Shown here: in pieces, positions 14,730 to 46,025 of the stretch | Position numbering within the stretch: the first letter of the stretch is position 1 | Layout: each line of letters begins with the position of its first letter | Translations under genes and position numbers: made by a program | The notes under the pieces: model-generated | The model's input: the letters and a program-made list of their open reading frames with translations, nothing else | Told to the model about the DNA's origin: nothing | Database searches by the model: none | Origin: Phycisphaera sp. | GTDB lineage: Bacteria > Planctomycetota > Phycisphaerae > Phycisphaerales > Zrk34 | NCBI GenBank assembly: GCA_016125285.1 | Contig: WGMA01000020.1 | Span: 1-64,000, forward strand | Reading direction: 5' to 3' | DNA length: 64,000 nucleotides

Positions 14730-16445
14730 ATGATTCTCCAGGACCAGACACACGAAATGATGACCGTCGCCATCGCCGACGAGGCGCAGCGCGAGACGAT
14801 CTATCAGATGCGTCACGACGTGTACGCGGAGGAACTGTCGCAGCACGCGGTGAACGAGCGCGGCCGCCTCAGCGACAGCCTCGACACGTTCAACACCTAC
14901 CTCACGGTCACGTCGGGCGGCGAGATGCTCGGGTTCGTCAGCGTCACGCCGCCGGGCGCCACGCCGTTCTCGATCGACAAGTACGTCGACCGCGAACGTC
15001 TGCCGTTCGAGCTCGACCGCGGCGTGTTCGAGGTGCGGCTGCTGACGGTGATGCCGCGGCATCGCCACACGCAGGCCGCGGCCGTGCTGATGTGGGCGGC
15101 GCTGCGATGGGTCGAGTCACGCGGCGGGCGGCGGATCGTGGCGATCGGACGCGACGCGGTGATGGAGATGTACGAGCGGGTCGGCTTCGAGCGGGTCGGC
15201 ATCACGGTGAAGAGCGGGGCGGTGGGGTTTGAGGTGATGAGCGCGTCGGTGCAGCGGCTGCGGCGGGGCGGAGGGAGATTCGTGACGCGCTGGGAACGCG
15301 AGGGCTGTATCGACTGGCGGCTCGACACGCCGTTCGATCGGCCCGCGGCGTGTTACCACGGCGGGGCGTTCTTCGACGCGATCGGCGCCGACTTCGACAC
15401 GCTCGAGCGGCGCGACCGCGTCGTCAACGCCGACGTGCTCGACGCGTGGTTCGACCCGTCGCCCGGCGTCGTCGAGGCGCTGCGCGATCACCTGCCGTGG
15501 CTGCTGCGCACGTCGCCGCCGACCGGCTGCGAGGGCATGGTGCGCGCGATCGCGACGGCGCGCGGCGTCGACCCCGCGTGCGTGCTGCCCGGCGCGGGGT
15601 CCAGCGACCTGATCTTCCTGGCGCTGCGCCGTTGGCTGACGCCCGACAGCCGCGTCCTGATCCTCGATCCGATGTACGGCGAGTACGCCCACGTGCTCGA
15701 GCACGTCATCGGCTGCGAGGTCGACCGCCTCACGCTCCGACGCGGCGATCAATACGACGTCGACACCGCGGCGCTCGCCACGCGGCTCGCCGGCGGACGC
15801 TACGACCTGGCGATCCTCGTCAACCCCAACAGCCCGACGGGGCGGCACGTCGACGGGCACGTGCTGCGCGACGTGCTCGACCAGGCGTCGCCGCGCACGC
15901 GTGTGTGGATCGACGAGACGTACATCGACTACGTCGGCGCGGCGCAGTCGCTCGAGCGATACGCAGCGGACAGCGCGAACGTGGTGATCTGCAAGTCGAT
16001 GTCGAAGGTGTACGCGCTGAGCGGCGTGCGTGCGGCGTACATGGTCGGCCCGATGCACCTGATCGAATCGCTGCGCCCGCCGACGCCGCCGTGGGCGGTG
16101 AGCCTGCCGGGGCAGCTCGCGGCCGTGCGCGCGCTGCAGGACCCCGATTACTACGCCGCGCGCTACGCCGAGACCCACCGCATGCGCGACGCGATGGCGC
16201 GCGAGCTGGCCACCCGATTCGACATCGACGTCGTGCCCGGCGTGGCGAACTTCCTGCTGTGTCACCTGCCGCAGCCCGGCCCCAACGCCGCCGAGCTCGT
16301 CCGCGCCTGCCGCACCAGCGGCGTGTTTCTCCGCGACGCGTCCAACATGGGCGACCACCTCGGCGACCGCGCCATCCGCATCGCTCTCAAAGACGAAGCG
16401 ACCAACGCGACCATCATCGGCGCGATCGCCGACGTGTTGAGATAA
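14730..16445 (+). CDS. GNAT-like acyltransferase fused to a HisC-type aminotransferase
   Basis: 571 residues in two parts. Residues 1-190 look like a GNAT/autoinducer-synthase-type acyltransferase (IYQMRHDVYAEELSQH, FEVRLLTVMPRHRHTQAAAVLM, MYERVGFERVG). Residues ~200-571 are a class I/II PLP aminotransferase resembling histidinol-phosphate aminotransferase: GAGSSDLIF, LVNPNSPTGR, WIDETYIDY and the PLP-lysine block CKSMSKVYALSG. A strong GGAGG precedes ATG 14730. Known family chemistry predicts acyl transfer and transamination in one chain; substrates are unknown. No histidine biosynthesis genes are nearby, so a role as the pathway HisC is unlikely. Could act on an amino-acid-derived signal or lipid; that is speculation. 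Confidence 0.85.
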   Translation: MILQDQTHEMMTVAIADEAQRETIYQMRHDVYAEELSQHAVNERGRLSDSLDTFNTYLTVTSGGEMLGFVSVTPPGATPFSIDKYVDRERLPFELDRGVFEVRLLTVMPRHRHTQAAAVLMWAALRWVESRGGRRIVAIGRDAVMEMYERVGFERVGITVKSGAVGFEVMSASVQRLRRGGGRFVTRWEREGCIDWRLDTPFDRPAACYHGGAFFDAIGADFDTLERRDRVVNADVLDAWFDPSPGVVEALRDHLPWLLRTSPPTGCEGMVRAIATARGVDPACVLPGAGSSDLIFLALRRWLTPDSRVLILDPMYGEYAHVLEHVIGCEVDRLTLRRGDQYDVDTAALATRLAGGRYDLAILVNPNSPTGRHVDGHVLRDVLDQASPRTRVWIDETYIDYVGAAQSLERYAADSANVVICKSMSKVYALSGVRAAYMVGPMHLIESLRPPTPPWAVSLPGQLAAVRALQDPDYYAARYAETHRMRDAMARELATRFDIDVVPGVANFLLCHLPQPGPNAAELVRACRTSGVFLRDASNMGDHLGDRAIRIALKDEATNATIIGAIADVLR

Positions 16446-34764: not shown

Positions 34765-34793
34765 TTGAGACGCTCGGCGGCGGTGTGTAGAAT
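34765..34793 (+). promoter_or_regulatory. Native tRNA-Cys promoter, now at the left end of the element
   Basis: TTGAGA (34765-34770) and TAGAAT (34788-34793), spacer 17. Transcription would start near 34800, just before the tRNA-Cys 5' fragment at 34809. Before integration this promoter would have driven the complete tRNA gene, now at 45841. It currently reads into the mobile element. Confidence 0.65.
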
Positions 34794-34806
34794 CCCTCGT
34801 TCGGTT

Positions 34807-34830
34807 CCGGCCGCGTAGCCAAGTGGCCCA
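34807..34830 (+). repeat. attL core
   Basis: Starts CCGGCCGCGTAGCCAAGTGG and ends CCCA; identical to 45839-45862. It covers tRNA-Cys nucleotides 1-22. After this point the sequence departs from the tRNA, so this copy cannot make a tRNA. Confidence 0.85.
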
Positions 34831-35023
34831 TTCTGCCGGGTCTCCTAACAAACAGCATCCCAAACAATTACGGCCCTCGCAAGTTGGCCGCGCAGCGCAT
34901 GCGCAGCGCGCAGCCAACCCCGACCCTGACTTTGACACCCTCGTGAGTGCGTGGCCAACGCTATCAGCATCGCTGCGCGCTCGGATCGCGGACATGGTCC
35001 GCACGGAGATGAACCGGGCATAA
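34811..35023 (+). pseudogene. Detached 3' end of the integrase gene (intC)
   Basis: The frame that crosses the attL core continues as HSAGSPNKQHPKQLRPSQVG and ends WPTLSASLRARIADMVRTEM then NRA and a stop at 35023. Motifs like LVxAWPTLPExxRxxIxxMV are common at the C-termini of tyrosine integrases of planctomycetes and other high-GC bacteria. The frame through the core (codons CGG CCG CGT AGC CAA GTG GCC) is the same as in the integrase at the right end, so a circularised element encodes one protein of about 536 residues. Alone it has only a GTG at 34823 as possible start and is probably not translated. Confidence 0.8.
34889..34910 (+). repeat. Candidate arm-type integrase site, left
   Basis: 22 bases containing the palindrome GCGCATGCGC, identical to 45646-45667. 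It lies 58 bases inside the attL core. One copy in each arm of the att region is the pattern of integrase arm-binding sites. Confidence 0.6.
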
Positions 35024-35090
35024 TGCCCCATGAAAAAACGCCGGAAGCGTGTCATTCGACCGAGACGCGACCGACGTTGGAGTAAGACTC

Positions 35091-36236
35091 ATGAGCAGTA
35101 TAGCACGCGGATGTTCCCTCGTAACGGCGTACATGGAAATGGAATCTGGACGAAAGAAAAATCCAACGAACGCCGACTACAAGCGACGCTGTCACAAGAC
35201 GGCGTGTTCGGCCTGCGGGCTGTACGATTGCCGCACGTGGGTCGGCCGTCATCATTGGAAGGTTGCGGCGCTGCACGCCAGAACGAGCACGTACACGCTG
35301 ACGTGGCCGAAGCTCCCGACGTGTAAAGCGTCCGTGGAGTCCGTACTGTTGTTCTTCGCAGCCGTGGAGCGTCTCCGGCGACGGCTGGCGTCGGACTATA
35401 TGTGGCTCCGCAACGTGATCGGTTTCGTCCTCAAGACCGAGATCAACTTCCTTCCGAGATCACGAGGAGGGCAGTTCCAACTCCACGGTCACCTGTTGAT
35501 CGTGTTCGCCACGCCACAATCGCAGCGGAGTTTCCCGATCACCTTGGCAGCATTGTGGAAGGCCCCGAAGGGGCAAACGATCGAGTCAGACGATGACCGT
35601 GAGAACAGCAGTCTGGCCGGGTTCCTCTACTACTGCGCCAAGCACCCGGTGCAGGTGTCCGACGAGGAAGCCGACGAGAAGCAGCAAAACGATTGGCGTA
35701 TGAAGTTGCAGCGGTGCGTTCTCAATGATGTCGAACGCGAACTCGGCCGACCAGCCATCGCGAAGCATGTCGAGGGCATCTTGAAGGGACACAAGTTTCG
35801 GGAGATGGAAGACCGCGCGCACTACGAGCAGTTGCCACCCGATGAGCAGGCCACGAGTCCGTCACGGAAGGCCGCGCCGCTGCCGGAAGGTGTAAACCGT
35901 GTGTTGGTGAAACCCCGTTGTCCACAATGTCGCGGCGTTGGGCGGAAGATCATCAAGTGGTGCAAGGATCGACACGGTGAACAGCGCTACCGCTGTAAGA
36001 AATGCGCCGTGACGTTCCTTCATCGGCATCGTTCACCCCACGCTGAAAAGCTCCTGAAAAACAGCACCATCCCGCGTAAGGAAGCCAACGCGATGCGCAA
36101 ATTGTTCGAGCAAGGGACGAGCGTTGCGGCGATCGCGAGGCACTTCAACCGAGCATGGATCACTGTCAAGAAGGTCATCGAATACTTCCGCGAACAGTCC
36201 CGGCAGTATAACTACCCCGGTGCTAGCGCGGCCTGA
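35091..36236 (+). CDS. HUH-endonuclease Rep-like protein with zinc knuckles and HTH
   Basis: 381 residues from ATG 35091 (GGAG upstream). HUH landmarks in order: motif 1 TYTLTWPK (~67-74), the acidic strand VLKTEINF, the HUH motif as LHGHLLIVF (His132, His134), and motif 3 LAGFLYYCAKHP with Tyr180/Tyr181 and Lys184 where the nicking Tyr is expected. A Cys cluster (CHKTACSACGLYDC, 34-47) precedes it and a zinc ribbon (CPQC at 277-280, CKKC at 302-305) follows. A helix-turn-helix (SVAAIARHFNRAWITVKKVI) ends it. Likely nicks the element's origin for rolling-circle replication. In the integrated state it lies downstream of the host tRNA promoter. Confidence 0.72.
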   Translation: MSSIARGCSLVTAYMEMESGRKKNPTNADYKRRCHKTACSACGLYDCRTWVGRHHWKVAALHARTSTYTLTWPKLPTCKASVESVLLFFAAVERLRRRLASDYMWLRNVIGFVLKTEINFLPRSRGGQFQLHGHLLIVFATPQSQRSFPITLAALWKAPKGQTIESDDDRENSSLAGFLYYCAKHPVQVSDEEADEKQQNDWRMKLQRCVLNDVERELGRPAIAKHVEGILKGHKFREMEDRAHYEQLPPDEQATSPSRKAAPLPEGVNRVLVKPRCPQCRGVGRKIIKWCKDRHGEQRYRCKKCAVTFLHRHRSPHAEKLLKNSTIPRKEANAMRKLFEQGTSVAAIARHFNRAWITVKKVIEYFREQSRQYNYPGASAA

Positions 36237-40178: not shown

Positions 40179-42539
40179 ATGCTTAACACGCTTATCGAAG
40201 ATTTCCGCACCGGCAAGGCGCATGGTGTGAAGATCATTGTCATCCCGGACGACGCCGACGGTGTTGAGGCCGTGGAGATCGGCGCTGTGCTATCCGATGC
40301 CATGCCCGACGACCTGCTCATTGGCGTCGAGTCCGGCGACACGCTACCGCACTACTCGCTGGCGGGGGCGCTGCGTAATGCGTATCTGCGACCGAAAGGC
40401 AGGCCGGGTGCGTGGCGAGCAGCGTTCGATAGAGCCAAGGACAAGATCGGTGATCTCGCGCTCGACGGCATGGGCGGCGTGGTCGGAGTTGCCGCGCACC
40501 TGACGCTGGACGCGCTGCCACAGTCGCCGATCAAGTCCGTGCTCAAGTCACCGTACTCCGTCGAAGCGGTGCATGAGGCCATCGGGCAATTACTCAAGGT
40601 CAAGCCGCTCGTGCTATGCATTAAACGGGCGCATATCGACTCGGCTGAGTCGATCCGGTTCGTCATGGAGCACTGCGTGCGCGGGGACAATCTCCGTAAG
40701 GGCGACAACCGGTTTCTGATCGTGCTGTACATTCGACAGCGAGACCTCGATAACGAACTATGGAAGGGTGTACAGGACTTCGTCGCTGATGAGGGACTGA
40801 TCGAGTTTCTTCACTACCGGGCGGACGGCGGTGCGTCGGAGTCGCCCTTGGTCGTCATCCTCCGTGAGGCCGACGACGCGGCGATACGGGTGCTGATGGC
40901 GCTGCGGTCGTACATGTCGGCATACGAGGCGGAGGTTTGCCCACGCACCGTGTTGACCAAGGCCATCGGTTCCGTGTCGCGGCCGCTGCAATGGCTTGAG
41001 GAGAAGGGAGTGGTGCAGCGGATCGGCGACGACGGTGAGTTGTTGGTCCTGCCAGAATCGTATGACTGGACCGACCTGCGCGATGCCGTCGATGATGTGA
41101 TCGACACCGCCGATACAGACGACGAGTATGACGACGAGGACGTAGCGGACTCGCAGCCGGTCGTGGAAGCCGCCCGGTCGATGTTCACAGCCGTGATCGA
41201 AACTGATGGGCGGACGCAGGGCAACTTCAAGCCGCTGCTTGAACTTGCGGTCGAGGGTCGCCTTGCCGCACAGGCGATGGACTTGGCGGGTCGTACCGTT
41301 CAGGCACTTGCCGAGGCACGCGATCACGACGAACTACTTCGCCTGCGACCGCTCCTTCGGCGTGCGTTTCGGCGCATGGACCTGTGGGAGTCCGCAGAAC
41401 GTCAGGATGTGGATGCGATTCAGGCGGGGATGCGGGCGTTCGGCGCGGCTTTCGATGCGTTGGCGTGTGAGCCGTGGGGATTGGTGCAGGCGGAAGTCGC
41501 TGGCATGATCCGTCAGGTCTACGCCGACGCCCGACGGCACCTGCCGTGGGCGATCCTGCAACACCTCGAAGATGTGGCTGATGGTGATTCGGGAAATCTG
41601 TTACTGACCACACGCAGGGGACGTGTGAAACTCGTGTCGTACCAACACAGCGGGTTCCAGACGAAGCGTCGTGGCCTGCGCGGAAAATCCTTGCTGTCGG
41701 ACCCTGACGATGATGGAACGCTATCGGAGTTGTATCCCGTGTCTGGCGGTCACCTCATGTGGGCGTTCTGTTCGGACCAGTCGGTCTACTGCTATCCGAT
41801 CGGATTCATCGACGCGAAAGACCATGATGGGGGGTATTGCCTTCCAGCGCAGGATGTGTCTATCTGTCTCGAACTGCGCCCGCCGGAGGATGTAGTGACG
41901 TATGGGATACCGCCCAAACCGGTAGCGCCGGGCTATGTCGTTCTGCTGAGCGAAACAGGGCAGGCGGCTGTCATTGACAGTACGGCACTTCCCACCTCCC
42001 CTCGTGCGCGGGTCGCCCTCCCCGTTGAACTGCTGTCCTCGCGCGTCGCGCCGCGTTGGTCGGTGTTCGTGCAGGCGGATGAAGACCTGTTTGTCGGCAC
42101 CACCGACAACAAGGTATTACGTGTGCCCGGAACCCTTCTACCGAGCAGGTCAGGGGCACCGGCCGAGCCAATCATTCACCTCGACGGTGACGCCAGATTG
42201 GCCGCAGCGTGCGCACTGCCGCCGTCCAGTGGAGGCAACCCGCAATATCTGTTTGTCGCCACGACGGGTGGATACGGCAAGTCGATCGACGCCCGCGAGT
42301 TCTCCGCCGCATCGTGGGGTGACGTTGGGGTCGTCGCCCAATCCGAGGGGAAGCGATCCGGTTCACTTTGCACGATCGAGCCACTGACACTCTTTGGCGA
42401 CGTGGTACTTGGCACAGCCCAAGGCGAGATCATCCGCATCTTCCGTAGCGATATTCCGCTCCGTAACCGAACAGGTGTCGGCGTGAAACTGATCGACCTG
42501 CTGAAACGCGATCAGGTCGTATGCGGCTGCGCCATGTGA
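40179..42539 (+). CDS. Large element protein: degenerate ATPase-like N-terminus plus GyrA-CTD-like beta-pinwheel
   Basis: 786 residues; GGAGGA before ATG 40179. Residues 15-190 follow a AAA/STAND-like pattern (first strand VKIIVIPDD, Walker B-like LVLCIKRAHIDSAES at 144-158, sensor-like FLIVLYIRQRD), but the P-loop lacks the GK(S/T) and the Walker B Asp is replaced, so ATP hydrolysis is unlikely. Residues ~240-295 look like a winged helix (AIGSVSRPLQWLEEKGVVQR), then an acidic linker. From ~470 on, repeats resemble the gyrase A C-terminal pinwheel: LLLTTRRGRVK with TKRRGLRGKSL (like a GyrA box), YVVLLSETGQAAVI, LFVATTGGYGKSI and GEIIRIFRSDIPLRNRTGVG then VKLIDL. Proposed role: wrapping or bending DNA. 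The similarity is by eye only. Confidence 0.6.
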   Translation: MLNTLIEDFRTGKAHGVKIIVIPDDADGVEAVEIGAVLSDAMPDDLLIGVESGDTLPHYSLAGALRNAYLRPKGRPGAWRAAFDRAKDKIGDLALDGMGGVVGVAAHLTLDALPQSPIKSVLKSPYSVEAVHEAIGQLLKVKPLVLCIKRAHIDSAESIRFVMEHCVRGDNLRKGDNRFLIVLYIRQRDLDNELWKGVQDFVADEGLIEFLHYRADGGASESPLVVILREADDAAIRVLMALRSYMSAYEAEVCPRTVLTKAIGSVSRPLQWLEEKGVVQRIGDDGELLVLPESYDWTDLRDAVDDVIDTADTDDEYDDEDVADSQPVVEAARSMFTAVIETDGRTQGNFKPLLELAVEGRLAAQAMDLAGRTVQALAEARDHDELLRLRPLLRRAFRRMDLWESAERQDVDAIQAGMRAFGAAFDALACEPWGLVQAEVAGMIRQVYADARRHLPWAILQHLEDVADGDSGNLLLTTRRGRVKLVSYQHSGFQTKRRGLRGKSLLSDPDDDGTLSELYPVSGGHLMWAFCSDQSVYCYPIGFIDAKDHDGGYCLPAQDVSICLELRPPEDVVTYGIPPKPVAPGYVVLLSETGQAAVIDSTALPTSPRARVALPVELLSSRVAPRWSVFVQADEDLFVGTTDNKVLRVPGTLLPSRSGAPAEPIIHLDGDARLAAACALPPSSGGNPQYLFVATTGGYGKSIDAREFSAASWGDVGVVAQSEGKRSGSLCTIEPLTLFGDVVLGTAQGEIIRIFRSDIPLRNRTGVGVKLIDLLKRDQVVCGCAM

Positions 42540-42642: not shown

Positions 42643-43347
42643 ATGAAGCGAGCCGTCGCATACATCCGAGTCAGCACCTCCGATCAGGCCCTCGACGGCG
42701 TGTCGCTGGATGCGCAGCGGGCAAAGATCGAGGCGTGGGCGCGTGCGAACGACTACGACCTCGTGGAAGCCCATACGGATCGGGGAATCTCCGGCAAGGC
42801 CACGCACAACCGACCCGCCCTTCACGACGCTTTGGCTGCTGCGTGCCGTCAGAAGGCCGTCCTCGTCGTGTATAGCTTGTCCAGATTGGCAAGATCCACC
42901 AAAGACGCCATTGACATCAGCGAGCGCTTGGAACGCTGTGGGGCTGATCTGGTGAGCTTGAGTGAGCAACTGGACACGACCTCGGCGGCCGGGAAGATGC
43001 TGTTTAAGCTCTTGGCCGTGCTTGCCGAGTTTGAGAGTGACACGGTGTCCGAAAGGACGAAGGCAGCGATGGCGTACAAGCGAAGCCGTGACGAGCGGAC
43101 CAGCAGATTTACGCCGTATGGCTACACGCTCGACGTTGACGGGAAGCGGCTTCTTCCCGACCCTGACGAGCAACAGGTGATCCGCAAGATGACGCAGATG
43201 CGGCAGCGGGGGCAGACGTACCGAACGATATGCCGGAACCTCGAAAAGCAAGGGGTCCGCAGCAAGCGGGGCAAGGGGCGGTGGTCGCCGACCGTCGTGC
43301 GCAAGATCATCCAGCGGGCGGACGAGCGGGAACTGGTATCACAATAA
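42643..43347 (+). CDS. Serine recombinase (resolvase family)
   Basis: 234 residues. The catalytic domain begins RAVAYIRVSTSDQALDGVSL, with the nucleophile Ser in VSTSDQ and conserved Arg in SLSRLARS; GKMLFKLLAVLAEFESD is the E-helix region. A short recombinase-type domain follows (TPYGYTLDVDGKRLLPDPDE, then TICRNLEKQGVRSKRGKGRW and PTVVRKII). Shorter than large serine integrases, it is more likely a resolvase or invertase acting on the element, for example to resolve multimers, since a tyrosine integrase is also present. Confidence 0.9.
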   Translation: MKRAVAYIRVSTSDQALDGVSLDAQRAKIEAWARANDYDLVEAHTDRGISGKATHNRPALHDALAAACRQKAVLVVYSLSRLARSTKDAIDISERLERCGADLVSLSEQLDTTSAAGKMLFKLLAVLAEFESDTVSERTKAAMAYKRSRDERTSRFTPYGYTLDVDGKRLLPDPDEQQVIRKMTQMRQRGQTYRTICRNLEKQGVRSKRGKGRWSPTVVRKIIQRADERELVSQ

Positions 43348-43700: not shown

Positions 43701-44017
43701 AAGGGGGCGAGACATATGAAGTTGCGAAGGCCGGTGGCTGCAACAGGCAACATGAACTGTCCGCGTGACGTGGGAAGAACTATGGGGCGAGACACTGGCA
43801 AGTGGCAACAGCGTCGCGAACCACGATGTTTACGAGGTTTGACGAATCATAACTTTGTCTCGCGTCACGCGGACAAAGCACCAGCCGTAAAGGTCTGAAA
43901 TACAACGCAATATGCCATGCCTTCGCGACTCGATTCCCTATTGAGTCAGTGTCCGGTGTGACCCTACTATGGCCTGCATGGATTTGACAGAGCCGATCAG
44001 ATAGGAGGCAGGCCGAT
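43701..44017 (+). promoter_or_regulatory. Intergenic region with promoter of the xis-int operon
   Basis: TTGAGT (43941-43946), 18-base spacer, TACTAT (43965-43970) give a promoter ~48 bases before the excisionase-like gene. A hairpin TTTGTC(T)CGCGT/ACGCGGACAAA lies at 43854-43877. No coding sequence is supported here; the small frame from ATG 43716 is not convincing. Confidence 0.55.
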
Positions 44018-44236
44018 ATGAGACGAAAGGATGCAGAAGCGATGGCGACCAGCGTGTTGGGCGACTCGATGCTCAAGTTGAAAGAGGTTGCCGAGTTTTT
44101 GGGGATCGGGCTTTCTACGGCGAAGCGGTGGAAGGCACAGGGTAAGTTCCCGCCGCCAGATTTTCGGGTGAGTGGCATCATCCGCTGGCGTGTCGGCACC
44201 ATTGAGCGATGGATGGAAAAGCAGGAGGGGCGATGA
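44018..44236 (+). CDS. Excisionase/AlpA-like HTH protein
   Basis: 72 residues; a perfect AGGAGG precedes ATG 44018. Residues ~18-45, MLKLKEVAEFLGIGLSTAKR then WKAQGKFPP, are the MerR-like winged helix of AlpA/excisionase proteins, continuing with the family pattern DFRVSGIIRWRVGTIERWME. Presumed to bind the att region and direct the integrase toward excision. First gene of a tight operon: its stop overlaps the next start (ATGA), and the following gene overlaps int by TGATG. Confidence 0.85.
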   Translation: MRRKDAEAMATSVLGDSMLKLKEVAEFLGIGLSTAKRWKAQGKFPPPDFRVSGIIRWRVGTIERWMEKQEGR

Positions 44237-44445
44237 TGGGAAGCGTATGGAGACAACGGCAGGTTCCCGGGTGTCAATCCACTCGCTGGCGGTTCGCCTA
44301 CGTCGATGAGACCGGCAAGCGGCGAACTCAGACGGGGACGCATTCAAGGCGCGAGACTATGGATATGTTGAGAGCGGCGGAAGCAGCAGTCACGCGCACT
44401 GAGTTGGGATCGAGTGGGAAGCCCAATGAGGGCGGGGGTGGTTGA
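44233..44445 (+). CDS. Stand-alone copy of the integrase arm-binding domain
   Basis: 70 residues from ATG 44233 (AGGAGG upstream, 4-base overlap with the excisionase gene). The sequence MGSVWRQRQV ... WRFAYVDETGKRRTQTGTHS then RRETMDMLRAAEA parallels the N-terminus of the integrase that follows (MGSVWKRKTD ... WWFTYINELGKRRTEKGTCS then KEETTELLQAAEA). It therefore looks like a duplicated first domain without catalytic part. It could compete for arm sites and tune the direction of recombination. Ends in a Gly-rich tail whose stop overlaps the int start. Confidence 0.72.
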   Translation: MMGSVWRQRQVPGCQSTRWRFAYVDETGKRRTQTGTHSRRETMDMLRAAEAAVTRTELGSSGKPNEGGGG

Positions 44446-46025
44446 TGGGCAGCGTTTGGAAGCGAAAAACTGACAAGCGACGGTCCGGTGTGCCTTGGTG
44501 GTTCACGTATATCAACGAGTTGGGCAAACGCCGAACTGAAAAGGGAACATGCTCGAAGGAGGAGACTACGGAGTTGTTGCAGGCGGCCGAAGCAAGAGTG
44601 CTGCGACGAAAGCACGGAGTGGTGTCAGCGAAGGATGAGAAGTTCGCAGAGCACGCCAAGAAACCGATCACGCAGCACATTGAAGACTACCTTGCTCACT
44701 GTGAATGTGTGGGGCATAACGATAAGCACCACCACAACGTGACGCAGCAATTGAAGCGAATCGTCAGGGTGACACGGGCAGTGCATTTACGCGATGTGGA
44801 TGCACCCGCAATCGAGCGGTACATGATGAAGATGAAGGAGGCAGGTCGAGCGCCTCGCACAATCAACCACCACCTCAAGGCCGCGAAGGCGTTTTTCAAC
44901 TGGTGCGTTGCAGAGGATCGACTGTCGATCAATCCGATCGCTAGGGTGAAACGACATGAGGAACGGGGAAGACACAATCGTCGGATGCTTCGCCGTGCTG
45001 CTACGCGTGACGAGTTTGAAGCACTCATCCGAGTGCCCGAAGCTGTCAGGCGAGGGCGTCATCACGTATACATCATCGCGTATTGGACAGGGCTGCGGCG
45101 GAACGAACTACGGCAACTTCAATGTCGTGACGTTGACTTAGAGCATCGACAGATCGTCCTTCCCGCGCACGTCGATAAGGCAAGGAAGGAGAATCAAATC
45201 CATCTTCACCCGCAAGCGGTCGAGTCGCTACGCGCGACAATCCTTCCCGATGTGAAACCGGGCGATCGGGTGTTCCGCTCGATCCCTGAGCCAAGTACGT
45301 TCAACAGGGATTGCGAGCGGGCAGGAATCAAGCGAGAGATCGACGGACGGGTGTTTAACTTTCACGCGTTGCGTATGACTGCAAACACGCACCTTGGTCA
45401 GGATGGAGTGAGTGAGGATGACAGGCGTCGATTCCTTCGGCACTCCGACCCGAGGATCACGCGTGACAACTACGACGACACAAAGGTGCGTCTTGACAGT
45501 CTTGGGCACATCATCGACTCGCAGCCGCCCATCGGCGCGAAGACCGATCGCCCCGAGGTGGTTGAACAACGGGCAAAGGCGACGGGTACGGACGACGCAG
45601 TGGCGGTGTCTGACGATGTGTCAAAACCAAAGGATGACGAAACCCCGCGCAGCGCATGCGCAGCGCGGAGAGACGAACGAGCGAGCCACAACGATACTGA
45701 GCGGTACCCCGATGGAGTGGTGGGCCGGATTGAACGAAGCGGGAGCACCGACTACAATCCCGCGTCTGAAACTGAGTTAGACTCGGCGAGACTCACCGAA
45801 ACCAAGTGTGAAGTGAGCACCGGAGAAGACACTGATTCCCGGCCGCGTAGCCAAGTGGCCCAAGGCGACGGTTTGCAAAACCGTTATTCGTGGGTTCGAA
45901 TCCCACCGCGGCCTTTTTTCATTGCGACGCGCACGCCGCGTCGCGAAGCACTTCGCCTCTCTCCCGCTTGTATGAATGCGCGCCCGCGGTCCTTTGACTC
46001 GCCTGGCGTTACCCCGGTGATCTGA
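44445..46025 (+). CDS. int: Tyrosine integrase, C-terminus replaced by integration
   Basis: 526 residues as it stands. Start ATG 44445 in a TGATG overlap; TTG 44442 is possible. Residues 1-60 are the arm-binding domain, ~75-165 the SAM-like core-binding domain (PITQHIEDYLAHCECVG, TINHHLKAAKAFFNWCV), and ~185-350 the catalytic domain: TGLRRNELRQL (Arg218/219), FHALRMTANTHL (His307, Arg310), RHSDPRITRDNYDD (His333, nucleophile Tyr343). All catalytic residues are upstream of the attachment core, which is read as residues ~466-472. From residue 473 the frame runs through the rest of the tRNA-Cys gene and into host DNA. The element-encoded C-terminus lies at 34829-35023. Confidence 0.9.
   Translation: MGSVWKRKTDKRRSGVPWWFTYINELGKRRTEKGTCSKEETTELLQAAEARVLRRKHGVVSAKDEKFAEHAKKPITQHIEDYLAHCECVGHNDKHHHNVTQQLKRIVRVTRAVHLRDVDAPAIERYMMKMKEAGRAPRTINHHLKAAKAFFNWCVAEDRLSINPIARVKRHEERGRHNRRMLRRAATRDEFEALIRVPEAVRRGRHHVYIIAYWTGLRRNELRQLQCRDVDLEHRQIVLPAHVDKARKENQIHLHPQAVESLRATILPDVKPGDRVFRSIPEPSTFNRDCERAGIKREIDGRVFNFHALRMTANTHLGQDGVSEDDRRRFLRHSDPRITRDNYDDTKVRLDSLGHIIDSQPPIGAKTDRPEVVEQRAKATGTDDAVAVSDDVSKPKDDETPRSACAARRDERASHNDTERYPDGVVGRIERSGSTDYNPASETELDSARLTETKCEVSTGEDTDSRPRSQVAQGDGLQNRYSWVRIPPRPFFIATRTPRREALRLSPACMNARPRSFDSPGVTPVI
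45646..45667 (+). repeat. Candidate arm-type integrase site, right
   Basis: Identical over 22 bases to 34889-34910 and in the same orientation (contains GCGCATGCGC). It lies 171 bases before the attR core, inside the int reading frame. Confidence 0.6.
45839..45862 (+). repeat. attR core
   Basis: Identical to 34807-34830. It supplies nucleotides 1-22 of the intact tRNA-Cys, so the element restores the tRNA gene it entered. Confidence 0.85.
45841..45914 (+). tRNA. tRNA-Cys (anticodon GCA)
   Basis: Acceptor arms GGCCGCG (45841-45847) and CGCGGCC (45907-45913) pair fully. The anticodon stem is ACGGT/ACCGT with loop TTGCAAA, anticodon GCA at 45875-45877. The T arm GTGGGTTCGAATCCCAC is perfect. 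The discriminator is U (45914), the identity base for tRNA-Cys. CCA is not encoded. A run of T follows at once and may terminate transcription. The 5' part is element-derived and the native promoter is 11 kb away at 34765. Transcription now probably depends on the xis-int operon or a weak local promoter. Confidence 0.95.

Follow-up and report, generated by a model that had tools for sequence, protein, structure and literature searches.

An integrative element in the 5′ half of a planctomycete tRNA-Cys gene: an integrase gene containing its own attachment site and a putative substitute tRNA promoter

Recombinases that disrupt their own gene were described as exclusively archaeal in a 2021 review, which also states that recombinant tRNA genes of bacteria are, with rare exceptions, still served by the promoter they had before (PMC8371274). 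Bacterial cases of an attachment site inside the integrase gene are nevertheless on record. In phage Mx8, attP is reported to lie inside int and integration to exchange the C-terminal 112 residues for 13, leaving the catalytic part whole and the altered enzyme less active (PMC4701971; PMC4383910); the ICEs of rumA are named beside Mx8 as cases of this kind (PMC4701971). Some elements target the 5′ end of protein genes and bring a new promoter for them, among these the dusA islands (IMEVchUSA3) and ICE SXT in prfC, as a lacZ test has shown for dusA (PMC8409611). In the tRNA-dependent lysogeny of mycobacteriophage Fionnbharth, integration rebuilds no tRNA gene, and the phage therefore brings a complete one of its own (PMC10865867).

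In this study, we analyzed a 64,000-nt stretch of a Phycisphaera sp. contig (hereafter the window), in which an 11-kb integrative element occupies the 5′ half of a tRNA-Cys gene. With Mx8 it shares a bacterial tyrosine integrase, an attachment site within its gene, an exchanged C-terminus and a whole catalytic part. Mx8 is described as a single case, however, whereas the integrase of the window belongs to a large Planctomycetota family with a common tail motif. The pTN3-like elements of Thermococcales share with the window the attachment site in int, the use of the tRNA 5′ half, the loss of the promoter and an int fragment left near the host promoter (PMC8371274, PMC5495485). Their cut separates the N-terminal from the catalytic part, whereas the cut in the window lies after the catalytic domain, and transcription of their rebuilt tRNA is ascribed to the integrase promoter (PMC8371274), whereas the window has a separate promoter-like sequence near the tRNA. 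Integration of SSV1-type elements also splits the integrase gene, but there the cut inactivates the enzyme and the tRNA 3′ part is used (PMC8371274), while the integrase of the window loses its C-terminal tail only.

Like the dusA and prfC elements, the window has a promoter sequence, here a predicted one, that belongs to the element and precedes the rebuilt gene; the dusA and prfC targets are protein genes, and the description of their promoter does not place it within the integrase gene (PMC8409611). The element would also resemble Fionnbharth in taking over the expression of a tRNA disturbed by integration, with the difference that tRNA-Cys is rebuilt at 45841 and only its promoter is substituted. 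ARAGORN calls no other tRNA genes inside the element. A literature search covering few subscription journals returned no papers on such planctomycete integrases. While the single parts are known, what is new is a large bacterial family with a common tail and a predicted tRNA promoter inside int that accompanies changed orientation.

The element and its split integrase gene

The element is bounded by a 24-nt exact direct repeat (34807-34830 and 45839-45862, forward strand), of which the genome holds no third copy with up to three mismatches allowed. The left copy is the left attachment core and contains the displaced 5′ fragment of tRNA-Cys, which begins at 34809. The right copy is the right attachment core and supplies the 5′ end of the rebuilt, complete tRNA-Cys (GCA; 45841-45914, forward strand; ARAGORN; Infernal 68.1 bits), and the crossover falls in the D-arm part of the gene. 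A preliminary description of this DNA had the element entering the 5′ half, with the complete tRNA 11 kb away at 45841, and both the repeat and the ARAGORN call agree with it. Between the repeats G+C is 58.5%, as against 65-68% in the flanks. Unbroken tRNA-Cys genes are present in relatives; in one of them (G060) two left-flank genes lie near tRNA-Cys in opposite orientation, which lends weak support to empty-site synteny.

The cargo comprises genes for a Rep-like protein, a serine recombinase, a xis-like protein and a tyrosine integrase. The Rep-like gene (35049-36236, forward strand), downstream of the host promoter, retains its label from the preliminary description; an HxH motif (LHGHLLI) was noted by eye, with weak family matches to HTH and zinc-ribbon parts. 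The xis-like HTH gene (44018-44236, forward strand) matches HTH_17 and excisionase-type PHROGs, and a probable xis-int promoter, TTGAGT-18-TACTAT, is placed at 43941-43970 (forward strand) by consensus match only. Other genes of the element include one for a 786-aa protein (40179-42539) that matches the beta-propeller of DNA gyrase A in its C-terminal part and lacks the other parts of gyrase, and the serine recombinase itself is short and CcrB-like (234 aa; 42643-43347), standing beside a tyrosine integrase in the same element. Elsewhere in the window, ARAGORN calls a 94-nt tRNA-Pro at 15257-15350 that is not in the Infernal search of the genome and is probably false.

The integrase gene, with the attachment core included, spans 44445-45862 on the forward strand (Phage_integrase PF00589, E=2e-16; phrog_1, E=3e-42) and sits between the complete tRNA-Cys and the displaced fragment of the same tRNA. 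The Pfam scan of int gave PF00589 and SAM-like domains; PF16795 (Phage_integr_3), a domain of the archaeal suicidal integrase families, was absent from it. In the integrated state the int frame leaves the core, passes through the tRNA, covers a further 111 bp of host sequence and stops at 46025, so that the gene carries a replacement end of 54 tRNA- and host-encoded codons plus the stop (45863-46025, forward strand). With the element ends joined, int crosses the core and continues for 64 residues in 34831-35023, giving 536 aa in total. This in-frame join identifies 34823-35023 (forward strand) as the detached C-terminal tail, as the preliminary description had proposed in assigning the left-end fragment to int, and homologous tails occur in other elements. 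The cut falls after about codon 472, and the Phage_integrase match covers residues 189-345 of the 472 shared residues; the catalytic domain is thus intact after integration. Directly before int lies a 78-aa ORF (44209-44445) with 46% identity to the N-terminal 59 residues of int; judged by this similarity, it is a partial copy of the integrase end that probably binds the arm sites.

The same anatomy recurs. A second tRNA-Cys element (L118, the same locus as L367; JAJVII010000028.1, Phycisphaerae bacterium Bin_76R) is 4.6 kb long with a 45-nt core and joins in frame to a homologous tail, as does a tRNA-Leu element (L181), and a tRNA-Gly element (L299) is built alike, with a homologous tail. The tails of the window, L118 and L181 share a consensus of roughly DLxxLLxAWPxLPDxLKAxIAxMVRA. 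Tails split from int in frame were found in four 5′-half and six 3′-half elements; since six 3′-half elements join in frame to the tail motif, the split is independent of 5′-half orientation. The motif was not seen in L126, L307, L316, L325, L338 and L373 despite a displaced fragment. Searched against 198 genomes of the class, a profile of the three tails finds matches in 114, for the most part in separate short frames, and in 23 of 28 pairs (same contig, at most 60 kb apart) the tail lies upstream of the integrase on the same strand, the arrangement expected from a split int. The long frames around tails in L256, L259-L266 and L269-L271 held no intact integrase. On the phage-like contig L275, by comparison, int is unbroken, with the tRNA half in mid-gene and the tail at the end, and in L279 and L374 tail and integrase share one frame. 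From these three loci we conclude, at the level of sequence, that the free form is an int gene with the attachment site inside and that integration breaks the gene. Two Verrucomicrobia relatives, L348 and L338 (Chthoniobacterales, Opitutaceae), have a displaced tRNA fragment and an in-frame int extension, which in L348 resembles the tail motif, so the self-splitting int may extend beyond Planctomycetota.

Promoter sequences and the orientation of the target tRNA

The sequence TTGAGA-17-TAGAAT (34765-34793, forward strand) matches the consensus at 10 of 12 positions (shuffle p<0.005) and ends 15 nt before the 5′ tRNA-Cys fragment. The intact tRNA-Cys genes of two relatives have TTGCCA-16-TATACT (G023) and TTGACA-16-TATACT (G019) at the same position, and that of G060 has TTGAAT-17-TACAAT with a 57-nt leader. 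These similar promoters before unbroken tRNA-Cys genes suggest that the host promoter is real and has been displaced, as the preliminary description had it. By position it faces the int fragment and the Rep-like gene, again in line with that description.

The same description saw no comparable promoter before 45841, and here it was mistaken. TTGAAC-17-TACAAT (45730-45758, forward strand), inside int, has 9 of 12 consensus positions (shuffle p<0.005) and ends 82 nt upstream of tRNA-Cys. This is one of the greatest distances in our set, if not the greatest, although a few host tRNA promoters lie equally far. Together with the comparative enrichment reported below, the match suggests that 45730-45758 is apparently an element-borne promoter for the rebuilt tRNA-Cys. 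The description is right that the tRNA must now be transcribed from element DNA. With a promoter-like sequence of the element close upstream, however, it need not come from the end of an xis-int transcript. The genome count of tRNA-Cys genes that had been suggested as a check gives two, the gene at 45841 and one with a long variable arm on contig C32. The latter is an 85-nt tRNA-Cys (GCA), its long variable arm being unusual for tRNA-Cys, in an array of ~31 tRNAs (L031; G000:C32:13000-22800) that is possibly carried by a mobile element. Since a second gene stands in the array, the 45841 tRNA-Cys may be dispensable.

Most genomes surveyed for related loci are metagenome assemblies. The window int as a single query gave no match among the genome contigs, an alignment query did give matches, and plasmid and phage records held distant integrases only. 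Among the first 69 relatives with a tRNA or tmRNA beside int, 64 are convergent, that is, they target the 3′ half and keep the host promoter, and 5 are co-directional; further loci came from a second set and a pattern search. For each locus we scored sigma70-type promoters on the int strand across the 120 bp that precede the tRNA, a consensus score and not a measure of activity. In the first scoring, with shuffle p<0.1 as the criterion for a clear promoter, co-directional loci had a mean of 9.2 and a clear promoter in 11 of 12, as against 3.8 and 4 of 83 for convergent loci. After a single viral locus had been included and the shuffles rerun, the counts were 10/13 and 6/83 (Fisher 1.7e-7). Solitary tRNAs of the window's genome, the positive control, reached 36/44 with a mean of 8.6; for the co-directional loci, the next two 120-bp stretches upstream gave 1/13 each and the antisense strand 2/13. 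In a replication set of new loci, drawn from named genomes and scored only once the hypothesis had been settled, the promoter was present in 3 of 4 co-directional and 2 of 43 convergent cases. Over all loci it is present in 13 of 17 co-directional (5′-half) and 8 of 126 3′-half elements, the four co-directional loci that lack a clear one being L141, L183 (borderline), L291 and L317. In all five co-directional loci where a displaced fragment was found (the window, L118, L126, L181 and L299), the promoter has shuffle p≤0.005. No displaced fragment was found for L061, L141, L155, L166, L179, L183, L188 and L192, most of whose contigs end early, nor in ~60 kb upstream of L188.

Across the tree built from 96 integrases we count 12 changes of orientation, of which 8 or more fall on supported branches, and inheritance in a single clade therefore fails to explain the link between promoter and orientation. 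Of 8 phylogenetically independent pairs, 5.1 show promoter and orientation in agreement and 0.3 in conflict (sign test, median p 0.06), a result that is suggestive and, by itself, borderline. One further reading, in which the promoter is a mere by-product of a conserved linker motif, was rejected because convergent relatives lack the promoter. Among the loci of the collection, L169 (G161:C1:802846) is an integrase of the same family that adjoins and overlaps a gene called as tRNA-Sec, and integrases overlap tmRNA in L064, L078, L085, L123, L147, L176 and L324.

A proposed mechanism, its alternatives and its implications

We consider it probable that the element carries attP within int, that its integration cuts off the host promoter and splits int, and that a substitute promoter within int keeps tRNA-Cys expressed. 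The sequence shows that recombination in the D-arm part leaves the host promoter and the tRNA 5′ fragment at the left end, with tRNA-Cys rebuilt at the right end after element DNA, and that the crossover also cuts int: the conserved tail stays at the left end, and the gene gains 54 tRNA- and host-encoded residues. Because 5′-half integration removes the host promoter, the element would carry a substitute, which the comparison of loci places as a sigma70-type promoter in the linker-coding end of int. Transcription from there should yield a short tRNA precursor lacking the int start codon, and translating ribosomes would thereby be kept off the tRNA. The host promoter, now displaced, may transcribe the tail and the Rep-like gene. 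By analogy with phage Mx8, loss of the tail could make the integrated Int less active or differently regulated, favoring stable integration.

Several other explanations were weighed against this mechanism. The rebuilt tRNA might lack a promoter of its own and be transcribed solely at the end of the xis-int message, tying cysteine decoding to integrase expression. Int and the tRNA are indeed co-directional, the int frame passes through the tRNA, a promoter-like sequence is available at 43941, and the rebuilt tRNA of the archaeal pTN3-like elements is said to be expressed in this way (PMC8371274). We nonetheless regard it as unlikely, given that the tRNA has a promoter-like sequence 82 nt before it, that such sequences are specifically enriched in 5′-half elements, and that ribosomes translating int would traverse the tRNA on this transcript. 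It is also conceivable that 45730-45758 resembles a promoter by chance or through its coding function, with the tRNA made by read-through or with the array tRNA-Cys covering cysteine decoding. A 9/12 match is not strong, since a 12-kb region holds 5 such sites against 3.7 expected, and the array does supply a second tRNA-Cys (GCA); that gene, however, has an atypical long variable arm, and the enrichment is position-specific, seen in about a dozen independent elements, and backed by the strand and position controls and the replication set, which makes this explanation very unlikely.

The proposed mechanism further depends on the tail being part of int. The left-end ORF matches no Pfam family and lies ~150 residues past the end of the Phage_integrase match, so its in-frame join could be put down to the coincidence of an open G+C-rich frame in an unrelated ORF. 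To this we give almost no credence: the idea is largely refuted by the ten elements that join in frame to homologous tails, at different tRNAs and in both orientations, and by the single frames of tail and integrase core in L275, L279 and L374.

Beyond the window, we see about an even chance that a Planctomycetota integrase family routinely cuts its own gene on integration, that every turn to the 5′ half gained a tRNA promoter in int, which places integrase, attachment site and promoter in a single stretch of sequence, and that the host promoter drives the tail and a replication gene. Two predictions follow from the proposed arrangement: a promoter should lie within the last 120 bp before the tRNA, and the tail should be joined to Int only when the element is excised.

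Entry into the 5′ half of a tRNA gene is a situation that the 2021 review calls seldom encountered in bacteria, and the present locus bears on how an element can achieve it safely. Contrary to that review (PMC8371274), our results indicate that self-cutting integrases are common in one bacterial class. In Phycisphaerae, a large number of the short ORFs annotated as "hypothetical" probably represent integrase tails that have become detached, and read-through of tRNA genes probably accounts for many of the integrase C-termini in databases.
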